Source: an uncultured Flavobacteriaceae bacterium (GTDB taxonomy: Bacteria; Bacteroidota; Bacteroidia; Flavobacteriales; Flavobacteriaceae). From it: a stretch of DNA of 64,000 nt. Below, piece after piece: positions 13,517 to 30,531 of this stretch. The DNA lies in NCBI GenBank assembly GCA_947497245.1, contig CANMFO010000006.1, positions 124,001 to 188,000 on the forward strand, in the 5' to 3' direction. The notes below the pieces were generated by a model, which was not told the DNA's origin, did not search any database, and saw only the letters and a program-made list of their open reading frames with translations. A program made the translations under genes and the position numbers. Numbering within the stretch: the stretch's first letter is position 1; each line of letters opens with the position of its first letter.

Positions 13517-13564
13517 ATGTACAGTGGAATATCAAGTAGGGAAGGGAAAACCTAGATTTTTTCG

Positions 13565-13691
13565 GTTATCTGTCCCGAACATATTTCAGGATAGAATGTA
13601 GCACCTTCTTTTTCCCGAGTCGATAGATCTTGGAGTGAAAAAGGGTTGCTAAGGTTTCAAAGGGTCTACTCCCTCCACCTTTCTTGATAAC
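13565..13691 (-). promoter_or_regulatory. SAM-I (S-box) riboswitch upstream of the metH-metF operon
   Basis: Read on the minus strand, the aptamer opens with GTTATCAAGAAAGGTGGAGG, continues through AGACCCTTTGAAACC and TTAGCAACCC, and has AAGGTGCTACATTC near its 3' side, all SAM-I core elements. P1 is closed by GTTATC (13691-13686) with GATAAC (13570-13565). It lies upstream of the split metH genes and metF and should lower their expression when SAM is plentiful. A copy with the same opening lies upstream of metY. Confidence 0.93.
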
Positions 13692-13719
13692 GGCATATCA
13701 GTTTGCTAAAGAACTAGTG

Positions 13720-13847: not shown

Positions 13848-14909
13848 TTACGCGATACTCTGTACCACTTCTTTTTTTGCTTCTTTCTTACTGCCGTCAA
13901 AGCCTTCAACACCGCCTACCGTGGTGTACTTCATTACGAATCGCTTTCCAGGATTGATCAGTTGGTATGCGTATTGGCACATCACGGCCGCTTCATGGAA
14001 ACCTGATAGGATGAGCTTGAGCTTGCCCTCATAGGTGTTCACATCGCCAATTGCAAAGACCCCCGGAATATTGGTCTGGTAGTCCTTGGCGTTGTTCACT
14101 TTTATGGCGTTTTTTTCAATTTCCAGCCCCCAGTCCCCAATGGGTCCCAGTTTAGGGGAAAGTCCGAACAATGGAATGAAGCTGTCGGTCTCCACATAGG
14201 TTTCCCCTTTATCGGCGTTGTTGTGCTTAATCACCACGGCCTCTAAATGTTCGTCGCCGTATAAGCGGCTTACCTCGGCCTCCGTGAAGAGTTTTATTTT
14301 GCCCATTTTGGCCAGTTCGGCAGCTTTTTCAACGGAATCCAGCGCTCCCCGAAACTCATTTCTCCGGTGCACCAAGGATACTTCCGAGGCCACATCGGCC
14401 AGAAAGATTGCCCAGTCAAGGGCAGAATCCCCCCCTCCGGCGATAACGACCTTTTTATTGCGATATACCTCGGGGTCCTTGACCATATAGGCCACACCTT
14501 TATCCTCAAAATCCTGGATATTGGCAATAGGCGGTTTCCTGGGTTCAAAAGAGCCAAGCCCTCCAGCGATGACCACCACTGGGGCCTGATGTTTCGTACC
14601 TTTGTTGGTGGTGACCACAAATGACCCATCGTCCAACTTATCCAAAGTTTCAGCCCTTTCCCCAAGGGTGAACCCAGGTTCAAACGGCTTGATCTGCTCC
14701 ATTAAATTGCTGACCAGGTCACCTGCCAAAATCTCCGGGAACGCCGGAATATCATAGATCGGTTTTTTGGGGTATATTTCGGAACATTGCCCTCCCGGTT
14801 GCGCCAGCGCATCGATTAAATGGGTCTTCAATTTTAGCAGTCCGGCCTCAAAGACCGTAAACAATCCCGTAGGGCCCGCGCCAATAATCAATATATCAGT
14901 TTTTATCAT
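13848..14909 (-). CDS. Ferredoxin/flavodoxin--NADP reductase, thioredoxin-reductase-like (YumC type)
   Basis: A 353-residue flavoprotein of the thioredoxin-reductase-like FNR group. It has an N-terminal FAD motif (LIIGAGPTGLFTVFEAG), a second Rossmann NADPH motif (VVIAGGGDSALDWA, about residue 157), and a C-terminal FAD contact (GVFAIGDVNTYEGK). It lacks the redox CxxC of true thioredoxin reductases, as expected for YumC. As last gene of the sulfur operon it probably reduces a ferredoxin that feeds the sirohaem sulfite reductase encoded three genes upstream; this link is inferred from position. Confidence 0.88.
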   Translation of the reverse strand: MIKTDILIIGAGPTGLFTVFEAGLLKLKTHLIDALAQPGGQCSEIYPKKPIYDIPAFPEILAGDLVSNLMEQIKPFEPGFTLGERAETLDKLDDGSFVVTTNKGTKHQAPVVVIAGGLGSFEPRKPPIANIQDFEDKGVAYMVKDPEVYRNKKVVIAGGGDSALDWAIFLADVASEVSLVHRRNEFRGALDSVEKAAELAKMGKIKLFTEAEVSRLYGDEHLEAVVIKHNNADKGETYVETDSFIPLFGLSPKLGPIGDWGLEIEKNAIKVNNAKDYQTNIPGVFAIGDVNTYEGKLKLILSGFHEAAVMCQYAYQLINPGKRFVMKYTTVGGVEGFDGSKKEAKKEVVQSIA

Positions 14910-14921
14910 TTTTGAATCGTT

Positions 14922-15500
14922 TTATACTTTTTCAACCAATTTTTGGGTTATTTCGTTCATTTTATCCACTTTTTGCTCAAAATCACCTTTTAGCGTTTTT
15001 CTGTAATCGTTCAGGTTCTGCACCATTTGACTGATATCATCCGGAATCACCTCTTCAAAAAATTGTCGCAACCGCTTGGCCGTGGTGGGAGATTTTCCAT
15101 TGGTGGAAATCGCCACTTTCACGTTCCCTTTGGTCACGATCCCACCCATATAAAAATCACAATAAGGCGGGTTATCGGCCACATTCACTAGCTTGTCCAT
15201 GGCCCGACAATTGTTATAAACCTGTATGTTTACTTCCGGTACGTCGGTTGTGGCAATGACCAGGTGCTTCCCGTGTAAATATTTTTCATGATACCAGTCC
15301 TTTATCAAAGTCACGTCATATTTGGCGGCCAATTCCAAAGTGCCTTTTCTGAACATTGGCGATACCATGGTAATCTTTGCATCCGGACTGGACTTGGTCA
15401 AAAAAGTGAGCTTTTCTTCGGCCACATGTCCTCCACCGACAATCAGCACGTGAAGATTGGCAGTTTTCAGGAATATCGGATATAGCGTATTTCGGTCCAT
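14922..15500 (-). CDS. cysG: Precorrin-2 dehydrogenase / sirohydrochlorin ferrochelatase (Met8/CysG N-terminal type)
   Basis: The 192-residue product corresponds to the CysG-B/Met8 part. It has an NAD-binding motif VLIVGGGHVAEEKL (residues about 14-27) and a helical dimerisation and active-site region containing ISTNGKSPTTAKRLRQF. It should oxidise precorrin-2 and insert iron to make sirohaem for the sulfite reductase. The methylase is a separate protein, CobA, whose stop lies 2 bp before this ATG (TGAACATG). The TTG six bases upstream is less likely. The gene ends 13 bp before the reductase gene. Confidence 0.9.
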   Translation of the reverse strand: MDRNTLYPIFLKTANLHVLIVGGGHVAEEKLTFLTKSSPDAKITMVSPMFRKGTLELAAKYDVTLIKDWYHEKYLHGKHLVIATTDVPEVNIQVYNNCRAMDKLVNVADNPPYCDFYMGGIVTKGNVKVAISTNGKSPTTAKRLRQFFEEVIPDDISQMVQNLNDYRKTLKGDFEQKVDKMNEITQKLVEKV

Positions 15501-15502
15501 GT

Positions 15503-16270
15503 TCAAAAACTCAGTTCTTGATGTGCATATTCATTTTGGATGTCCAAAATCCGTTCCCTATGGCGGACCACCTCACCAATAACGATGGTGGCGGGATTGG
15601 TCAGTTGTAAGCGCTCCACCTCCTCTTCTATAGAGGTGATGGTACCCACGCCCACCTTTTCATTGGCCAGGGTTCCACTTTGAATGATGGCAATGGGCAT
15701 TTCTGATTTCCCCGCCTTTTTGAACCTTTCAACAATCTGGTGCAGTTTGCCCATTCCCATGAGAATGACCACCGTGGCACTCGACTTGGCCGCCAAGGCG
15801 ACATCATCGGATAATTTATGTTCCTTGGTCGTTCCGGTAATGACCCAAAAACTTTGGGCAGATCCCCTTTTCGTAACAGGAATGTGCTGTGCGGCGGGTA
15901 CTGAAAGTGCGGAAGAAATTCCCGGCACCACTGCCACTTTTACACCAAGACGTGCCGCATATTCCATTTCCTCGGCACCTCTCCCGAACACAAATGGATC
16001 ACCGCCTTTCAATCGAACCACATGACCGTGCGATTTGGCCCTGCTTACGATCAGCTGGTTGATCTGTTCCTGTTGGTGGGAATAACATCCCTTGCGTTTC
16101 CCTACAAAAATATGCTCGGCGTTTGGTGCATATTCCAATAGCTCGGGATCGACCAAAGCGTCGTACATGACCACGTCGGCGCATCGCAAGACCTTAAGGG
16201 CCTTGAGCGTAATCAATTCGACATCTCCCGGGCCTGCACCTATAACCGTTAATGTAGGTTGTTTATGCAT
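15503..16270 (-). CDS. cobA: Uroporphyrinogen-III C-methyltransferase (SUMT)
   Basis: It makes precorrin-2 from uroporphyrinogen III with two SAM, the first step to sirohaem. The start MHKQPTLTVIGAGPGDVELI is chosen because the fold begins there; the in-frame extension to 16441 only mirrors the upstream gene. Marks are GAGPGDVELITLKAL, the KGGDPFVFGRGAEE substrate-binding segment and VVPGISSALSVPA. Length (255 residues) fits stand-alone SUMT. Its ATG overlaps the last codons of the sulfite reductase gene by 8 bp, so translation is probably coupled. It is also a SAM consumer inside the SAM-making cluster. Confidence 0.93.
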   Translation of the reverse strand: MHKQPTLTVIGAGPGDVELITLKALKVLRCADVVMYDALVDPELLEYAPNAEHIFVGKRKGCYSHQQEQINQLIVSRAKSHGHVVRLKGGDPFVFGRGAEEMEYAARLGVKVAVVPGISSALSVPAAQHIPVTKRGSAQSFWVITGTTKEHKLSDDVALAAKSSATVVILMGMGKLHQIVERFKKAGKSEMPIAIIQSGTLANEKVGVGTITSIEEEVERLQLTNPATIVIGEVVRHRERILDIQNEYAHQELSF

Positions 16271-18353
16271 GTTCCAATTCCAATTTTCTATACTCTTCCA
16301 CTTGTTGCAAAAAGGCTTTGGCATCTTCCAAGTAGCTTGTTGCAAAGGTTTCGGTAGGATCGTTCTGGTTGAGTTGCAGAACGGTTTTTCCAAAACCGTC
16401 CCCAAGTTCAATTCTTCCGGTTGCAACGAACTTTTCATCAAAATCCTTAATGATACCGGCGTGCGTATTGGTCTTTACATTTTCGGCCGTGAGCATCGCC
16501 TTGGCCGAATTCACCATGGAGGAGTAGGAATGGTAGATACTCGCCGCCCATTTGCCATCCTCAAGGTTCAATTGTGCATTGCCGATCTTTTCCTCGCTTT
16601 CGAACAACAAGGTGGCGATCAGATCGATGACCACCCCGGCGCACTCACCTATACCAATGGCCTTTTTGTATTTTTCCGTATTGCCCCAGTCGATAAAATC
16701 TTCCTGGACCAAATTTTCAATATCGGCAAGGGGTTTAAGGAAATCATAGAAGTAATGCTCTCCTTTTTCCGCATAATATTCAGCAAAACTGGCGCCATTG
16801 CCGTTTTTATCGAAATCGTTCAGGACCAACCGCAGGGCTTCCGGTCCCCTCTTACTGGGCACCTTGATCACCTTGTCGGCGAACCTTCCGTTCCCGTCTC
16901 CAAAATTGCCACCTCCCAACAACACCTGTAGGGCCGGTGCGACCCTTTTGTCCTTGGTACGGATGCTCATTCCCTGAAAACCTATATTGGCCATATTGTG
17001 TTGCCCACAGGCATTCATACAACCGCTTATTTTGATGACCACATCGGGGTTGCTGATATATTGGGGATATTCCGCTTTGATGATCCTTTCGAGCTCTTCC
17101 GCAATACCCGTACTGCTGGAAATACCCAAATTGCAGGTATCCGTGCCCGGACAGGCGGTGATATCCAGTGCTTTGTTATATCCCGCTTCCACAAAGCCCA
17201 ACTTTTTCAACTCGCTATAGAAAAACGGGACCAAGGCTTCCTTTACATAGGGGATCAAAATGTTCTGCCGAAGGGACAAACGGATTTCCCCCGCAGCGTA
17301 TTTTTCGACCAGATCGGCCAACAAACGGGCCTTGTCGGTATAAAAATCCCCCAACAATACCTTAATTCCGATGGCAACATAGCCCAGCTGCCTCTGAGGT
17401 ACCAGATTGGTCGATTTCCATTGCCCAAAATCTTGATCATCATCGATTTCGACCTGTGGTACTTCCACCTCGGCGATCTGCACCCTTGGATACGTTTCCG
17501 CGTCTATGGCGAACGATTCATAGGGAACCGCCCTTTGTTCCGTCAGCAATAAGGCTTTAAAACCATCCAGGCCGATATCTTTCAACAAGAACTTCATGCG
17601 GGCCTTGGCCCTGCTCTTGCGTTCCCCATAGCGGTCAAAAACCCGAATCACGCCCTCCATTAACGGAATGATCTTATCGGTGGCCAAAAAGGAAAACAGG
17701 ACATCGGCGTGTCTGGGCTGTGAACCCAATCCGCCTCCCAGCATAACTTTAAAGCCCCTCTGTCCGTTTTCGATTTTGGCTATAAAGCCCAAATCGTGCA
17801 TATAGGACAGTCCGGTGTCCGCGTCACTTGAGGAAAAGGAGACTTTGAACTTCCGGCCCATCTCCTGTCCTATGGGATTCCGTAGAAAATATTTGAAAAC
17901 GGCATCGGCATAAGGGGATACATCGAAGGGTTCGTCCACATCAATTCCCGCTGTTTCACTTGCCGTAACATTGCGAACGGTGTTCCCACAGGCCTCACGG
18001 AGGGTAACCTCATCTTTTTCCAACTCCGCCCAAAGCTCCGGGGTCCGGTTCAGGTCCACGTAGTGGATCTGAATGTCCTGTCGGGTAGTGATATGAAGGC
18101 GGCCGGTGGAATATTCATCCGCCACATCGGAAATACGCCTTAATTGTCGGGAAGTCACCTTGCCATATGGGAGCTTGATCCGTATCATCTGGACACCTTC
18201 CTGCCGTTGACCGTAAACACCACGGGCCAAGCGGAGGCTCCTGAATTTCTCTTCATCCAGTTTCCCTTCGTTGAACTGACGGATTTTAGCCTCCAGTTCG
18301 AGGATGTCTCTTTCTACAATGGGGTTCTCTATTTCTGTTCTAAAACTTTGCAT
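16263..18353 (-). CDS. Sirohaem/4Fe-4S sulfite (nitrite) reductase with C-terminal helical extension
   Basis: A 696-residue enzyme of the assimilatory nitrite/sulfite reductase family. Two sirohaem/ferredoxin-like half domains are visible, and four cluster-ligand cysteines in ACPGTDTCNLG (C401, C407) and SGCMNACGQ (C445, C449). Sulfite rather than nitrite is inferred from the cys and sirohaem genes around it. Residues from about 565 to 696 form an added helical domain (GIGECAGVVIDLIATLLFES onward) resembling HEPN-type regions, not needed by classical CysI. The gene follows a 138-bp spacer holding the third copy of the CTAT-N3-TTTAATAG element, so it may have its own controlled promoter. Confidence 0.9.
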   Translation of the reverse strand: MQSFRTEIENPIVERDILELEAKIRQFNEGKLDEEKFRSLRLARGVYGQRQEGVQMIRIKLPYGKVTSRQLRRISDVADEYSTGRLHITTRQDIQIHYVDLNRTPELWAELEKDEVTLREACGNTVRNVTASETAGIDVDEPFDVSPYADAVFKYFLRNPIGQEMGRKFKVSFSSSDADTGLSYMHDLGFIAKIENGQRGFKVMLGGGLGSQPRHADVLFSFLATDKIIPLMEGVIRVFDRYGERKSRAKARMKFLLKDIGLDGFKALLLTEQRAVPYESFAIDAETYPRVQIAEVEVPQVEIDDDQDFGQWKSTNLVPQRQLGYVAIGIKVLLGDFYTDKARLLADLVEKYAAGEIRLSLRQNILIPYVKEALVPFFYSELKKLGFVEAGYNKALDITACPGTDTCNLGISSSTGIAEELERIIKAEYPQYISNPDVVIKISGCMNACGQHNMANIGFQGMSIRTKDKRVAPALQVLLGGGNFGDGNGRFADKVIKVPSKRGPEALRLVLNDFDKNGNGASFAEYYAEKGEHYFYDFLKPLADIENLVQEDFIDWGNTEKYKKAIGIGECAGVVIDLIATLLFESEEKIGNAQLNLEDGKWAASIYHSYSSMVNSAKAMLTAENVKTNTHAGIIKDFDEKFVATGRIELGDGFGKTVLQLNQNDPTETFATSYLEDAKAFLQQVEEYRKLELEHA

Positions 18354-18414
18354 ATTTTTTTTTAAAGGGTCTTGTGTCCGGTATCGGGTCCCAAATCATT
18401 TTATTACATTTTTC

Positions 18415-18429
18415 CTATGGGTTTAATAG
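18415..18429. promoter_or_regulatory. Candidate sulfur-regulon operator, site 3 (CTAT-N3-TTTA-ATAG)
   Basis: CTATGGGTTTAATAG keeps all 12 fixed positions of the element seen twice upstream of cysH. Extended arms are CCTAT and ATAGG. It sits 62 bp before the sulfite reductase start in the cysN-sir spacer. Regulator identity (the nearby Rrf2 protein) is inferred. Confidence 0.6.
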
Positions 18430-18463
18430 GCTTAAATTAAGGTCGATTTTATATTCATTGGGT

Positions 18464-18483
18464 AGGTGTCCCTGTGGGACCTT
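18464..18483 (-). promoter_or_regulatory. Stem-loop just after cysN
   Basis: On the minus strand AGGTCCC and GGGACACCT can pair with one bulged base around an ACA loop, 9 bp after the cysN stop. No T-run follows, so it may be a weak attenuator or an RNA-processing/stability element between cysN and sir. Confidence 0.3.
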
Positions 18484-18491
18484 GACATTAT

Positions 18492-19739
18492 TTAATTGAT
18501 AAATCCGGCTCCAACGGTATTGTTCGATTGGGTATCTATGAGTATGAACGAGCCATTGGTTCTGTGATCTTTGAACTTGTCAAAGAAAATGGGTTTGTTC
18601 AGTTTGAAGCGCACCTGGGCAATATCGTTCATGCCCAGACCATCGACTTCCGTATCGATTCCGGAGTAGTCCGGATTGATTTTGTGGTGAATGTTGTCCA
18701 CCTTGGCCAAAACCTTGTTCACCCCATGTTGTACAATATACTTGTTGCCGGGACTTAGTTTTTGGGAATCCATCCATGAGATCGTGGCGGTAAATTGTTT
18801 TTCGATGGCTGGTAGGTCCCCTGCCTTTACCAACATATCGCCCCTGCTCAAATTGATCTCATCTTCCAAGGTGATGGTAACCGATGACCTTCGGGAAGCC
18901 GTTTGGAACTTCTTGTCATAAAAATAAATGTCCTTGATTTTTGATCGGGTGAGGGATGGCAGGGCGACCACTTCGTCCCCCACATTCAACTCCCCTCCGT
19001 ATACCTTCCCGGCAAACCCCCTAAAATCGTGATGTTCCTCGGTTTTTGGCCGAATTACAAATTGTACGGGAAAACGTGGGGTGCCGACGTTATAAATATC
19101 TTTTCGCTCCACTTCTTCGAGATGGTCCAATAGGGTTTCGCCACTGTACCAGGGCATGTTTTGCGATTTGTTGACCACATTGTCCCCTTTAAGGGCACTA
19201 ACGGGTATGAACGTAATTTTTTGCTCTTGGTAATCCCGCTTGCCCATCAATTCCTCAAAATCGCTCTTGATGGCGTTGTACTTTTCTTCGGAAAAATCCA
19301 CCAGGTCCATTTTGTTGATGGCCACTACCACATCCTTGATGCGAAGTAGGTTGTTGATGAAAAAATGTCGGTTGGTCTGTTCAATGACCCCTTTTCTGGC
19401 ATCGATCAAAATAATGGCCACTTGGGAGGTCGAGGCGCCGGTCACCATGTTCCGCGTATATTCCACATGACCTGGTGTATCGGCTATGATATAGCTTTTT
19501 TTGGCGGTCGAGAAATAAATATGCGCCACGTCTATTGTGATTCCCTGCTCGCGTTCGGCAACCAGTCCATCCGTGGCCAAGGAGAAATCGAGATAGTCGT
19601 ATCCCTTTTGCTTGCTGGTTTTCTCTATGGCCTCCAGCTTGTCGGTGGTCAATGATTTTGTATCATATAGCAGCCTACCGATCAAGGTACTCTTTCCATC
19701 GTCGACACTTCCTGCTGTTGCTATTTTTAGTACGTCCAT
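18492..19739 (-). CDS. cysN: Sulfate adenylyltransferase GTPase subunit CysN
   Basis: The GTPase subunit drives APS synthesis with CysD. The start MDVLKIATAGSVDDGKST at 19739 gives a 415-residue protein; the upstream in-frame residues are unrelated. G1 is GSVDDGKST, G3 DTPGHVEY, G4 NKMD, and EF-Tu-like beta-barrel domains follow. It ends where CysN domains end, with no C-terminal APS kinase (CysC) domain fused. It follows cysD with an 80-bp gap and continues the minus-strand cys genes. Confidence 0.95.
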   Translation of the reverse strand: MDVLKIATAGSVDDGKSTLIGRLLYDTKSLTTDKLEAIEKTSKQKGYDYLDFSLATDGLVAEREQGITIDVAHIYFSTAKKSYIIADTPGHVEYTRNMVTGASTSQVAIILIDARKGVIEQTNRHFFINNLLRIKDVVVAINKMDLVDFSEEKYNAIKSDFEELMGKRDYQEQKITFIPVSALKGDNVVNKSQNMPWYSGETLLDHLEEVERKDIYNVGTPRFPVQFVIRPKTEEHHDFRGFAGKVYGGELNVGDEVVALPSLTRSKIKDIYFYDKKFQTASRRSSVTITLEDEINLSRGDMLVKAGDLPAIEKQFTATISWMDSQKLSPGNKYIVQHGVNKVLAKVDNIHHKINPDYSGIDTEVDGLGMNDIAQVRFKLNKPIFFDKFKDHRTNGSFILIDTQSNNTVGAGFIN

Positions 19740-19819
19740 TTTTTCTATTATAGTTAGTAGTTCGAATCCTGTGCTCGACATTGAGACTTTAAATTGTTTG
19801 CCGAACACGCTCCGCCTTA

Positions 19820-20722
19820 CTAGAAATACCCTTGTTGTTTTCTTTTCTCCATGGCCGCTTCGGACCGTTTGTCATCGATACGGGCGCCGCGTTCCGAAAT
19901 GGTGGAATCCCTGATTTCCTGGACCACCGATGCAATATCGGTCGCTTCGGAAAATACGGCAGCGGTACAGCTCATGTCCCCTACCGTCCGGAAGCGTACC
20001 ATTCGTTCCAGTACCTCCTCGTCCTCTTCTTGGTAGACATAGTCGGAATGCGACCAAATCAGGCCATCCCTCAAAAATATTTTTCGCATATGTGCGAAAT
20101 AGATCGAAGGAATTTCAATTTCTTCCGCAGCTATGTACGACCATACATCGAGTTCGGTCCAATTGGAAATAGGGAATACCCTTACGTTCTGGCCAAGTTC
20201 GATCTGGCCATTGAGCATATCGAACAGTTCGGGGCGTTGATTCTTTTCGTCCCATTGTCCAAAATCGTCCCGTACAGAAAAAATGCGTTCCTTGGCCCTG
20301 GCTTTTTCTTCATCCCTTCGGGCCCCTCCGATACACGCATCGAACTTAAATTCCTCGATGGCATCCAGTAGCGTTGTAGTCTGCAGCGCATTTCTACTGG
20401 AATACCTGCCCGATTCTTCTTTTACCTTTCCCTCATCAATGGAATCCTGTACCTTTCTCACAATAAGTTCCAATCCCAGTTCCTCGACCAGGCGATCTCG
20501 AAACTCAATGGTCTCGGGAAAGTTGTGCCCCGTATCGATATGCATTAAAGGAAAGGGAATCTTTGCAGGCCAAAAAGCCTTTTGGGCCAAACGTACCAGG
20601 GTTATGGAATCCTTTCCCCCTGAAAACAGCAAGACCGGTTTTTCAAACTGGGCGGCCACTTCCCTAAAAATATAAATGGCCTCGTTTTCCAGTGCGTTTA
20701 TATGTGATGTATCGTTCTTCAT
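19820..20722 (-). CDS. cysD: Sulfate adenylyltransferase catalytic subunit CysD
   Basis: A 300-residue ATP-sulfurylase small subunit of the PP-loop family. The PP-loop appears as LLFSGGKDSITLVRLA (about residues 31-46), with downstream LMHIDTGHNFPETIEFRD and FDACIGGARRDEEKARAKER. It adenylates sulfate to APS with CysN. The C-terminus EKRKQQGYF is the typical CysD ending. It lies 49 bp after cysH and 80 bp before cysN, all in one direction. Confidence 0.96.
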   Translation of the reverse strand: MKNDTSHINALENEAIYIFREVAAQFEKPVLLFSGGKDSITLVRLAQKAFWPAKIPFPLMHIDTGHNFPETIEFRDRLVEELGLELIVRKVQDSIDEGKVKEESGRYSSRNALQTTTLLDAIEEFKFDACIGGARRDEEKARAKERIFSVRDDFGQWDEKNQRPELFDMLNGQIELGQNVRVFPISNWTELDVWSYIAAEEIEIPSIYFAHMRKIFLRDGLIWSHSDYVYQEEDEEVLERMVRFRTVGDMSCTAAVFSEATDIASVVQEIRDSTISERGARIDDKRSEAAMEKRKQQGYF

Positions 20723-20771
20723 AAAAATCGAGTTCTACAATTAAACCCGCCTTTCGGCAGGTTGGTTCAAA

Positions 20772-21395
20772 TTAGGTGTGCAGCCCACATTCCCTATTAT
20801 CCAATACCTTTGTGGGATCAAAATACTTGTGCTCATTGGGAAGGTTCCTGTCCGTGAGATAGGTATCCAACTGTGTGTCGCTCCAATGATAAAATGGACT
20901 TACCTTCAACACCCCATCCCTACCCAGGCTCAGGATGTCCAAAGAATCGCGAAGAGCGGTCTGTCCCTTCCTCAGATTGGTAAACCAGACATCCGGTTTA
21001 TGAAATTCCATTGCCCTTCGAAAGGGCTCCAATTTTACCTGCTCGGTAAAGGTGGCGTGACGGGGATCTTCTATACCCGGTATTCCCATGACGGCATCTC
21101 TATGGGAAGAGGTTTGTTTGGGCACATACAGGTCGATGTTAAGGCCCAATCTCGAAATCAGTTCCTCAGCGTGCCTGTAGGTGTTGGGCGTATTGTAGCC
21201 CGTATCGCACCAGATGACCGGGATATCCCCTTGCACATCGGTGACCGCATGCAGAATAGCTACTTCATATGGGCGGAAATTGGTCGTCACCACGGCCTTT
21301 TGCGCATTCTTAATGGCCCAGGAAATAATCTCCCCAGGTGGAATGCCCTTCAACTGTGTATTCAGCTTCTGTACTTGTTCCTGTGTAAAACCCAT
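20772..21395 (-). CDS. cysH: (Phospho)adenylyl-sulfate reductase CysH lacking the 4Fe-4S cysteine pairs
   Basis: The start MGFTQEQVQKLNTQL at 21395 gives 207 residues. The PP-loop-like fold is recognisable from IPVIWCDTGYNTPNTYRHAE and the C-terminal catalytic cysteine motif ECGLH. The CC...CxxC motif that binds the 4Fe-4S cluster in APS reductases is absent, so by the usual rule it would use PAPS. No APS kinase gene is in the window and CysN carries none, so the true substrate is open. It follows the DUF2061 gene (stop 21421) with a 25-bp gap. Confidence 0.9.
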   Translation of the reverse strand: MGFTQEQVQKLNTQLKGIPPGEIISWAIKNAQKAVVTTNFRPYEVAILHAVTDVQGDIPVIWCDTGYNTPNTYRHAEELISRLGLNIDLYVPKQTSSHRDAVMGIPGIEDPRHATFTEQVKLEPFRRAMEFHKPDVWFTNLRKGQTALRDSLDILSLGRDGVLKVSPFYHWSDTQLDTYLTDRNLPNEHKYFDPTKVLDNRECGLHT

Positions 21396-21420
21396 AGTAT
21401 TTTTTATTTGTACTCGAGGC

Positions 21421-21684
21421 TCAACGGCCCCAGCCAATTTTGTTCCAAATGCGCTCGTGGAAGAAATACAAAAACATTTTTGTGATAAAGTCCACCGATG
21501 CAATGGATGCCGCCAAAACCACTTTTCCCGTAAGCAAATAGGAAACCAATAGGGTGTCCAGTGTGCCAATAATCCGCCAGCTGATCGCTTTGGCGATGCT
21601 TCGGATCGGTTTTTCCGATTTAATATCGGCCGTATATTTACTTTTGGCCGTTTTTTTGTCTAGGATGAGTTGATCAGTAATCAT
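21421..21684 (-). CDS. DUF2061 small membrane protein heading the cys operon
   Basis: An 87-residue DUF2061 protein. The core is RSIAKAISWRIIGTLDTLLV followed by a second hydrophobic stretch, two short membrane segments joined by a turn. The family is often found with sulfate-assimilation genes in Bacteroidota, but its function is unknown; a role in sulfate uptake or in anchoring the pathway at the membrane is only a guess. It is the first gene after the promoter/operator region and is followed by cysH. Confidence 0.85.
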   Translation of the reverse strand: MITDQLILDKKTAKSKYTADIKSEKPIRSIAKAISWRIIGTLDTLLVSYLLTGKVVLAASIASVDFITKMFLYFFHERIWNKIGWGR

Positions 21685-21701
21685 ATTTTTATTTAATCTA
21701 A

Positions 21702-21726
21702 TTACTCTATCTGTTTAATAGAGTAA
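21702..21726. promoter_or_regulatory. Candidate sulfur-regulon operator, site 1 (9-bp inverted repeat)
   Basis: TTACTCTAT and ATAGAGTAA form a perfect 9-bp inverted repeat around a 7-bp centre. The inner 15 bp (21707-21721) are CTATCTGTTTAATAG. It lies directly downstream of the -7 box of the cys promoter, over the expected transcription start, a classic repressor position. Confidence 0.65.
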
Positions 21727-21727
21727 A

Positions 21728-21766
21728 CAAAAATATCATTATTTTATTATGTATGACGCAAAAAAA
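21728..21766 (-). promoter_or_regulatory. Promoter of the DUF2061-cysHDN operon
   Basis: On the minus strand the -7 box TATTTTTG (21735-21728) matches TANNTTTG exactly. A T-rich TTTG at 21762-21759 lies 23 bp upstream as a possible -33 element, at the long end of the usual spacing. The start site would fall in operator site 1. Confidence 0.55.
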
Positions 21767-21786
21767 CCAAAGAATTTACTTTTATC

Positions 21787-21801
21787 CTATAGATTTAATA
21801 G
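21787..21801. promoter_or_regulatory. Candidate sulfur-regulon operator, site 2
   Basis: CTATAGATTTAATAG lies exactly 80 bp upstream of the matching position of site 1 and shares all 12 fixed bases. The spacing would allow looping or cooperative binding. It lies upstream of the promoter, between it and the Rrf2 gene. Confidence 0.6.
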
Positions 21802-21873
21802 ATTATTAAGATTTCTGGGCAATCTCTGAGAATAATTCATCGTAATCACAGAGGGGTTGGGAAATTAAAAACG

Positions 21874-22284
21874 TCAGGGGATCAAATCTGCAAGGGTGGT
21901 ATTGCGATACACGTCCAGGGCACTGTCCCTGACCTTTAACATGAGCCTATGTACCGAACAGCCCACTTCATCCGGGCAATCGTCGCACTTCTCATAGAAG
22001 TTGAGGCTAACACAGGGCACCATCGCAATGGGTCCTTCCAGGATCCGCATCACATCGGTCATCAGGACCTCCTCGGGGTCCCTTATGAGGTAATAGCCCC
22101 CTCCTTTGCCCTTTTTGGATCCGAGGACCCCTGTTTTTCTGAGACTTAACAAAATACTTTCCAAAAACTTTTGGGAAATGTTCTCGTGCCGCGCAATTTC
22201 AGATATCTGTACAGGTTTGTTCCCTTTTTGGGCGGCCAAATAGGTCAAGGCCTTTAATCCATATTTCGTTTTTTTGGAGAGCAT
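21874..22284 (-). CDS. Rrf2-family transcriptional regulator with four cysteines
   Basis: A 136-residue Rrf2/IscR/CymR-type protein. The winged helix is at the N-terminus (KYGLKALTYLA; EIARHENISQKFLESILLSL; wing with KKGKGGGYYL). Cysteines at 91, 100, 103 and 109 lie where IscR and NsrR bind a cluster, so it may sense iron-sulfur status or a thiol; CymR, the classical cysteine regulator, lacks such a set. It lies just upstream of the cys operon on the same strand and is the natural candidate to bind the CTAT-N3-TTTAATAG sites. Confidence 0.9.
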   Translation of the reverse strand: MLSKKTKYGLKALTYLAAQKGNKPVQISEIARHENISQKFLESILLSLRKTGVLGSKKGKGGGYYLIRDPEEVLMTDVMRILEGPIAMVPCVSLNFYEKCDDCPDEVGCSVHRLMLKVRDSALDVYRNTTLADLIP

Positions 22285-28480: not shown

Positions 28481-28527
28481 AAATCAAAAAGTTATAAGAA
28501 AGAAAATTACGGAAGTAATTCGTTCGT

Positions 28528-28678
28528 GTTATCTATTCCTGACCGAGCCTCGATAAGGTGCTGAAACAAATTCAGCATCAAGATAGAATTTAGCACCTTC
28601 TTCGTTTCCGGAGCCATCGGGAGAACAAAGGGTTGCTAAGGCTTCAAAGGGTCTATTCCCTCCACCTTTCTTGATAAC
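28528..28678 (-). promoter_or_regulatory. SAM-I (S-box) riboswitch upstream of metY
   Basis: On the minus strand it starts GTTATCAAGAAAGGTGGAGG, then AGACCCTTTGAAGCC, TTAGCAACCC and AAGGTGCTAAATTC, the SAM-I core. P1 is GTTATC (28678-28673) with GATAAC (28533-28528). A long 3' arm stem (TGCTGAA/TTCAGCA) forms P4. It heads the metY - MetX-AK-HSD - metZ genes. Confidence 0.95.
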
Positions 28679-28708
28679 TATTCAATACGTGTTTGAACTT
28701 TTGAAGTA

Positions 28709-30011: not shown

Positions 30012-30531
30012 AATTTTCTTGTTTTTAATGAAAGGGGATCTGAAAATAAGGCCTTAAGAAGTATGATATGGGTAATTTTCAATATCAACTGCTTTAGCAT
30101 TTTTGCAATGCTGAACCGGTTCCAGCACATGAGGTTGCAATCAGTCAAATCCTTCCTCTTATGTTACGGCGGCAAAAATAAGAAAATTGTTTTGTCCCGG
30201 AAGTCATTCGGCCAAGATTTGTTCAAAAAACCCAAAACACGACCGATAAAAGTTGGACTGCGCCCATGCGCCGCACCCCGTCCAGAACAAAAAATGAGCT
30301 GGGGCAAGTTTATCCAGGCTTAAATTTCAGGGACCAAGCCACAAACCGATTTTGCCGATTTTTGTTTCCCTTTCGTTTCTTTCCACCAAACCAAGTACGG
30401 CCGGCTCGGGAATTCCGCACTCGCAAAAATTCCCACTGTATTTGACCGTATATTTTTTCCCAAACTCGATATACTTCGTATATTGTATGCCATCGCTTTT
30501 ACCAAAACCAACCTCTAAAAATCGAGCAAAT
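30012..30531. other. 520-bp divergent spacer between metK and the deoxynucleoside kinase gene
   Basis: No convincing gene or known RNA is seen here; the short frames look random. A -7-like TATTTTTG on the minus strand (30180-30173) could start metK with a leader of about 155 nt, but no -33 TTG is at the right distance. AGCATT/AATGCT (30096-30112) can form a small hairpin in that leader. ATATAC-TTC-GTATAT (30469-30483) is a perfect inverted repeat about 50 bp before the kinase start and could be an operator or part of its promoter. Confidence 0.4.

Follow-up and report, generated by a model that had tools for sequence, protein, structure and literature searches.

We examined a set of short repeats in the sulfate-assimilation gene cluster of an uncultured Flavobacteriaceae bacterium. 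The window, the whole stretch of DNA that was analysed, comprises 64,000 nucleotides of the 5.25-Mb genome (C6:124001-188000). An initial annotation, made from the sequence alone, had described three copies of a 15-bp element in this cluster, and the description proved accurate. The three 15-mers were found at the coordinates claimed, share 12 of 12 fixed bases (read on the coding, minus strand: CTATTAAANNNATAG) and all fall between annotated open reading frames (ORFs). Two of them are located 5′ of DUF2061-cysH-cysD-cysN with a start-to-start distance of 80 bp, and the third is located 5′ of the sulfite reductase gene (sir), 61 bp before its start. Also as described, site 1 is a perfect 9-bp inverted repeat, TTACTCTAT-N7-ATAGAGTAA, an exact -7 promoter box precedes it, and a gene for a four-cysteine Rrf2 regulator is a neighbour of the cluster. 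The features concerned are listed below, with the repeats given as 25-bp candidate operators; the expectation values (E) refer to a sequence-only model whose training set includes O1, O2, and O3, so that scores in the own genome are not independent.

21702..21726, minus strand: candidate operator O1, near site, 25 bp, TTACTCTATTAAACAGATAGAGTAA; model E 0.0104 in its own genome, 0 mismatches.
21782..21806, minus strand: candidate operator O2, far site, 25 bp, 80 bp upstream of O1, ATAATCTATTAAATCTATAGGATAA; model E 8.0e-5, 1 mismatch.
18410..18434, minus strand: candidate operator O3, in the cysN-sir spacer, TAAGCCTATTAAACCCATAGGAAAA; model E 0.0043 (positions 2-25), 3 mismatches.
21728..21735, minus strand: -7 promoter box TATTTTTG (consensus TANNTTTG), ending one base ahead of O1.
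21874..22284, minus strand: Rrf2-family regulator, the candidate binding protein, recognised by family models, fold, and four invariant cysteines.
21421..21684, minus strand: DUF2061 membrane protein (family match), first gene of the putative regulated unit.
20772..21395, minus strand: cysH-like (phospho)adenosine phosphosulfate ((P)APS) reductase, above the Pfam cut-off and below equivalog cut-offs.
19820..20722, minus strand: cysD, sulfate adenylyltransferase small subunit (family match).
18492..19739, minus strand: cysN, sulfate adenylyltransferase large subunit (family match).
16263..18353, minus strand: nitrite/sulfite reductase-family protein, downstream of O3, called sulfite reductase from its context.

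The initial annotation had further concluded that the element is the operator of the Rrf2 protein and defines a sulfur regulon. Our results support this conclusion in an amended form: the operator is 25 bp rather than 15 bp, a peroxiredoxin gene is added to the target list in relatives, the sites 80 bp apart make up a two-site promoter that is conserved, and of the three sites O3 is the least secure. Support comes from the conservation of the sites, their promoter-locked position, the absence of the motif from three genomes that have similar cys genes and lack an Rrf2 ortholog, its persistence where Rrf2 is not adjacent, and a geometry of the Rrf2 type. At the level of sequence comparison, the sites, their conservation, their promoter position, and their absence from three genomes without Rrf2 are established. 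We consider it likely that the repeats are operators through which the Rrf2 protein (21874-22284) represses sulfate assimilation.

Alignment of the relatives' sites (50 chosen by hand, 46 of them distinct) indicated that the 15-mer forms the middle of a longer palindrome of 25 bp, WTAYYCTAYTAAnnnnATAGRRTAW. Among 118 distinct sites, the counts in six columns of the half-sites were C6, 117; T7, 118; A8, 118; T18, 118; A19, 114; and G20, 118. The half-sites have the layout YYCTA-N9-TAGRR, two 5-bp halves with a 9-bp spacer, which among the window sites is exact in O1 only. The model was built from 45 of the 46 distinct sites, a weak sir-spacer site (L067) being excluded. In the own genome, where 150 of 1929 first-look candidates were scored, only O1, O2, and O3 reached E ≤1; the next match was partial, with E 2.84. 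A scan with the full 25-bp pattern gave 0 mismatches for O1 and 1 for O2, and at least 3 for every other place in the genome. O1 and O2 are thus unique in the genome by mismatch count, whereas O3 is not.

Conservation was examined in 60 genomes, the own genome included, of which 29 relatives possess clear Rrf2 orthologs (48–90% identity); matches of any kind, weaker paralogs included, were found in 43. Up to 20 kb was examined around each of the 29 relative Rrf2 loci. Twelve close relatives carry two sites before DUF2061, and a third is often present in the sir spacer. The 15-mer was found just upstream of rrf2 only in G011 among the 29 loci, which indicates that autoregulation is not general. 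The stretches of L082 and L086 contain none of DUF2061, cysH, and cysD. The initial annotation had proposed conservation upstream of cys genes in related Flavobacteriaceae as a check, and this was confirmed with the best 80 named loci from a scan with the Rrf2 alignment. Of these loci, 71 have DUF2061 or cysH in the stretch, and 69 of the 71 show a site scoring 16 bits or more no further than 200 bp ahead of the first cys gene. The two misses are L221, with 13.3 bits at 7 bp upstream, and L229, where a pair 80 bp apart is present and the nearer site is 208 bp upstream. Sites of at least 20 bits numbered 130 in 962 kb (both strands), versus 1, 0, and 1 for three column-shuffled matrices.

The position of the sites relative to the promoter was conserved. 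In the 36 named promoters with two sites, the spacing is 80 bp in 30, 79 bp in two, 81 bp in three, and 69 bp in one; in 28 further loci, the window included, it is 80 bp in 13, and values of 115 and 260 bp occur in two distant genomes. A gap of exactly one base separates TANNTTTG from the near site in 59 of the 70 named promoters with a box. Three loci (L083, L087, and L088) gave no hit in the promoter analysis; the site of L083 is one mismatch from the consensus and was probably missed because of a misplaced DUF2061 start, and the sites of L087 and L088 are weak. The spacing itself seems to be constrained, because the DNA between the sites is mostly poorly conserved apart from the promoter boxes (35 distinct promoters with a spacing of 80 bp). 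The 69-bp spacing is 11 bp shorter, about one helical turn, and is a single case (L264 and L177 are apparently the same contig). Some genomes have a single site, placed four or five bases past the box, and in L258-L260 and L084 the site lies three bases before a -7 box. Such positions suit a repressor.

We compared the occurrence of the sites with that of the Rrf2 protein. Of 41 relatives of the same family with Rrf2, 16 were fetched for the site test, and G010 was examined beforehand. Among all loci fetched for this test, 16 have both cys genes and an Rrf2 ortholog in the genome, and 15 of these carry a site of at least 16 bits near the cys start, the exception being L270 of another family. 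The motif was found in none of three genomes (G173, G052, and G059) that have similar cys genes (cysD 78–88%) and lack an Rrf2 ortholog; upstream of DUF2061 no score exceeded -3.9, -3.7, and -2.5 bits, respectively. This control set leaves out G030, where the locus is at a contig edge. In G173 (L254, upstream of 7926), a TACATTTG box is followed by what appears by eye to be half an operator. The site still accompanies DUF2061 where Rrf2 is not adjacent (7 kb away in G020, approximately 180 kb away in G321, and on another contig in G012), and a site with one mismatch is present in the divergent Rrf2/DUF2061 spacer of G028, whose Rrf2 is 48% identical. In 296 genomes of the order, Rrf2 (E ≤1e-25) is present in 36 of 39 genomes with cysD (E ≤1e-130) versus 68 of 257 others (Fisher p 1.6e-15, uncorrected for ancestry). 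G271, of the same family, has a weak site only and no cys gene in the stretch. Eight named loci of Aquimarina, Tenacibaculum, and Lutibacter (L228, L233, L240, L246, L248, L249, L252, and L253) have an Rrf2 ortholog; in the stretch, neither cys genes nor any site reaching 16 bits were found.

The operator was also found before a 1-Cys peroxiredoxin gene (PF10417 and AhpC-TSA) in relatives. Of 30 loci fetched, 23 with at least 63% identity were scanned and seven paralogs (≤48%) were left out. A site of at least 16 bits was found in 11 of the 23 orthologs, a weaker one in five (the own genome's copy among them), and none in seven, including G025, which has no Rrf2 ortholog. The relatives' operator covers the -7 box of the peroxiredoxin gene: in the 16 promoters, TANNTTTG is located at operator positions 10-17, exact in 7 and one base off in 7 more. 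Twelve model matches outside the cys cluster were examined among those listed. A 24.7-bit site precedes an fpr-ferredoxin pair (named by eye) at a Nonlabens locus, and G023 has a second DUF2061-cysDN locus with a 23.3-bit site. Further candidate members in G019 (C26 and C42), G023, G006, and G013 were rejected as model matches inside ORFs. G008 C174, a partial match near a gene resembling crcB by eye, and G019 C36, intergenic with no clear gene, were likewise not accepted.

Several results weigh against an Rrf2 operator or limit its reach. The 15-mer with 0–1 mismatch, which the initial annotation had proposed as a genome-wide search, is not enriched in the own genome, where matches with up to one mismatch numbered 30 versus 51 for the reversed control, and the 15-mer alone is ruled out as a definition of the regulon. 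The exact 15-mer occurs at five places, the two beyond the window trio being inside ORFs, as are 20 of the 25 one-mismatch places according to our ORF calls; the remainder consists of five one-mismatch places and the three window sites. The bare half-sites YYCTA-N9-TAGRR, found at 24 places in the genome (among the window sites, O1 only) versus 96 in the control, were rejected as a specific signal. Model matches also occur in genomes without an Rrf2 ortholog, down to E 0.003, and at E ≤1 they number 21 in G047, 11 in G051, and 8 in G013, so weak matches mean little. O3, with its 3 mismatches, ties with four other places in the 25-bp scan (6 matches in the reversed control); it therefore relies on the weighted model, which ranks it second in the own genome, and on its recurrence in relatives. 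No exact TANNTTTG box is near O3, nor was one found within 70 bases before or 60 bases after any of 14 sir-spacer sites examined. The full pattern scans weaken O3; O1 and O2 carry the case, and our overall assessment is unchanged. Among the relatives, L270 (another family, Rrf2 56% identical, cysD and cysN present) has no site of at least 12 bits. Near the Rrf2 genes of L271, L272, and L273 (50–55% identity, no cys genes in the stretch), the scores were none of at least 12, 13.7 (17.1 further away), and 13.9 bits, respectively. Two of the genomes without Rrf2, G052 and G059, belong to other families, so that distance may explain the absence; only G173 is of the same family. No site precedes the peroxiredoxin gene in 6 of 22 genomes with both Rrf2 and peroxiredoxin, and the site of the own genome is decayed, at 9.1 bits. 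Finally, the counts are not independent owing to shared descent among loci, and at least four named loci are also training genomes (G004=L178, G034=L194, G015=L201, and G032=L250).

The repeats could be real operators bound by a different transcription factor, with Rrf2 a syntenic neighbour only. The separation of Rrf2 from the sites in G020, G321, and G012 would fit such an arrangement, as would the eight Rrf2-bearing loci without cys genes and without a strong site, and two of the three genomes used as controls are distant. We consider it quite unlikely, since the motif is kept in none of the three genomes with similar cys genes and no Rrf2, G173 of the same family among them, since G028 retains a one-mismatch site beside an Rrf2 of 48% identity, and since Rrf2 proteins have been reported with a 5-N9-5 geometry (PMC9218516) and a site 23 bp long (PMC9338935). 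The same protein might instead act as an activator or dual regulator, with O2, centred approximately 70–75 bases before the inferred start, recruiting RNA polymerase and O1 in an accessory or repressing role. Activation is known among Rrf2 proteins, for instance from IscR, and O2 is held at a constant distance from the promoter and conserved about as well as O1. However, O1, downstream of the -7 box, is the remaining site in most one-site promoters, and sites just upstream of the box (L258-L260 and L084) or over it (at the peroxiredoxin gene) suit a repressor. We regard an activating or dual role as unlikely.

A role of the repeats as parts of the core promoter or of an RNA leader, or an explanation by shared ancestry, in each case without any protein repressor, is in our estimation highly improbable. 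O1 touches the -7 box and sits at the inferred transcript start, as such an element would, but O2 lies upstream of the promoter, the site precedes the box in L258-L260 and coincides with it at the peroxiredoxin gene, and the DNA between the sites is mostly poorly conserved. A riboswitch or other RNA element was likewise rejected, as the sites gave no Rfam match at gathering score. By position, the best-supported reading is repression by Rrf2 at O1.

From these patterns we infer the following course of events. An Rrf2 dimer would bind the 25-bp palindrome with the core YYCTA-N9-TAGRR. At O1, one base past the -7 box, it would cover the transcription start of DUF2061-cysHDN, and the bound protein would block RNA polymerase. 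O2 would hold a second dimer, probably strengthening repression through a phase-dependent contact. O3 would control the sulfite reductase part of the cluster; because none of the 14 sir-spacer sites has an exact TANNTTTG, it may halt readthrough as a roadblock or rely on a promoter of different form. Probable signals are a shortage of cysteine or sulfide, or else oxidation or the loss of a metal or iron-sulfur (Fe-S) cluster at the four cysteines, upon which the protein would leave the DNA and sulfate assimilation, and in relatives the 1-Cys peroxiredoxin, would be switched on. Cysteine, sulfide, or redox state as the signal fits the target list.

The predicted protein belongs to the Rrf2 superfamily (Pfam PF02082, 129.4 bits with a cut-off of 30; TIGR00738, 114.8 bits with a cut-off of 73.3), and its AlphaFold2 model (mean predicted local distance difference test (pLDDT) 84.3) has a winged helix and a long dimerisation helix. 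Among solved structures, T. potens IscR and CymR are closest in sequence and CymR in predicted fold, the best Foldseek match being 2y75. The protein may work like CymR, yet it falls below the equivalog cut-offs of both CymR (87.3 bits, NCBIfam NF047409 cut-off 195) and IscR (71 bits, TIGR02010 cut-off 207.55). The four cysteines, C-X8-C-X2-C-X5-C, are conserved in every one of the 22 aligned orthologs and also throughout a 28-row set (the window protein is in both). This arrangement departs from the Fe-S ligand set of IscR, C-X5-C-X5-C-X2-H, and several orthologs have Asn or Lys in place of the His of the IscR-type C-X2-H. The cysteines may hold a metal or Fe-S site; in the model, residues 91-98 of the Cys loop have a pLDDT <50.

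The system resembles several known ones in part. In Firmicutes, CymR acts as master repressor of cysteine metabolism (PMC2940859), and the window protein is predicted to share the Rrf2 fold of the B. subtilis and S. aureus CymR (template modelling (TM) score approximately 0.8 with 2y75). In contrast to the window protein with its four invariant loop cysteines, BsCymR binds no Fe-S cluster (PMC9338935), and stress genes of S. aureus are apparently indirect CymR targets without the motif (PMC2869319), whereas the relatives' peroxiredoxin gene carries the operator. The physiological role of CymR is similar; the sequence class, cysteines, and reported targets differ. A CymR equivalog would in addition be expected to form an OAS/cysteine-sensing complex with CysK. 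With the Fe-S Rrf2 regulators IscR, NsrR, and RsrR the protein shares a winged helix and a Cys-bearing loop before the long dimer helix, and NsrR reportedly recognises a 23-bp site (PMC9338935); the putative target genes, those of sulfate assimilation, are different. The SifR/HypR/SaiR operator, TGTAA-N9-TTACA, has 5-bp half-sites and a 9-bp spacer (PMC9218516), a geometry equal to that of the window consensus YYCTA-N9-TAGRR, but the half-site sequence is another one and no 80-bp tandem pair was found in the accessible text of PMC9218516.

Our literature search, with most subscription journals outside its coverage, found no account of this regulon and no regulator described for sulfate assimilation in Flavobacteriaceae. 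More tentatively, flavobacteria may possibly have a regulon not described so far, in which sulfate assimilation and the 1-Cys peroxiredoxin are under the common control of an Rrf2-family sensor that bears four cysteines and responds to thiol/redox or Fe-S status, with operators 80 bp apart (once 69) forming a phase-locked repression complex of two dimers and RNA polymerase. That sulfur assimilation is linked to a peroxiredoxin, and that the paired operators keep a fixed 80-bp distance, points to a thiol/redox sensor and an unusual promoter architecture. The question is now directly testable: the protein is named, the proposed operator is defined to 25 bp, targets are listed, and some genomes show natural losses.

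Three further genes of the cluster were identified downstream of sir.

15503..16270, minus strand: cobA-like tetrapyrrole methylase (siroheme; family match).
14922..15506, minus strand: siroheme synthase-like NAD-binding protein (family match).
13848..14909, minus strand: fpr-like flavoprotein reductase, in the syntenic block, named from sequence and synteny.

The C-terminal extension of the sulfite reductase (residues 582-649) matches Pfam HEPN with 26.5 bits (cut-off 22). DUF2061 adjoins both the assimilatory cysHDN and, in relatives (L170, L171, L172, and L173), a second, more divergent cysDN locus, which suggests a role in sulfate or sulfite handling, as judged by gene order. The decayed peroxiredoxin operator of the own genome (G000:C2:1036692-1037327, L142) has both arms changed symmetrically, CTA to CCA and TAG to TGG. 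At gathering scores, the only Rfam families in the window are SAM-I, found twice, and SAM-II, found once; these riboswitches belong to the neighbouring methionine genes (13563-13693, 28526-28680, and 30084-30164, all on the minus strand), and none is at the operators. One cluster therefore combines both SAM riboswitch classes with putative Rrf2 operators.

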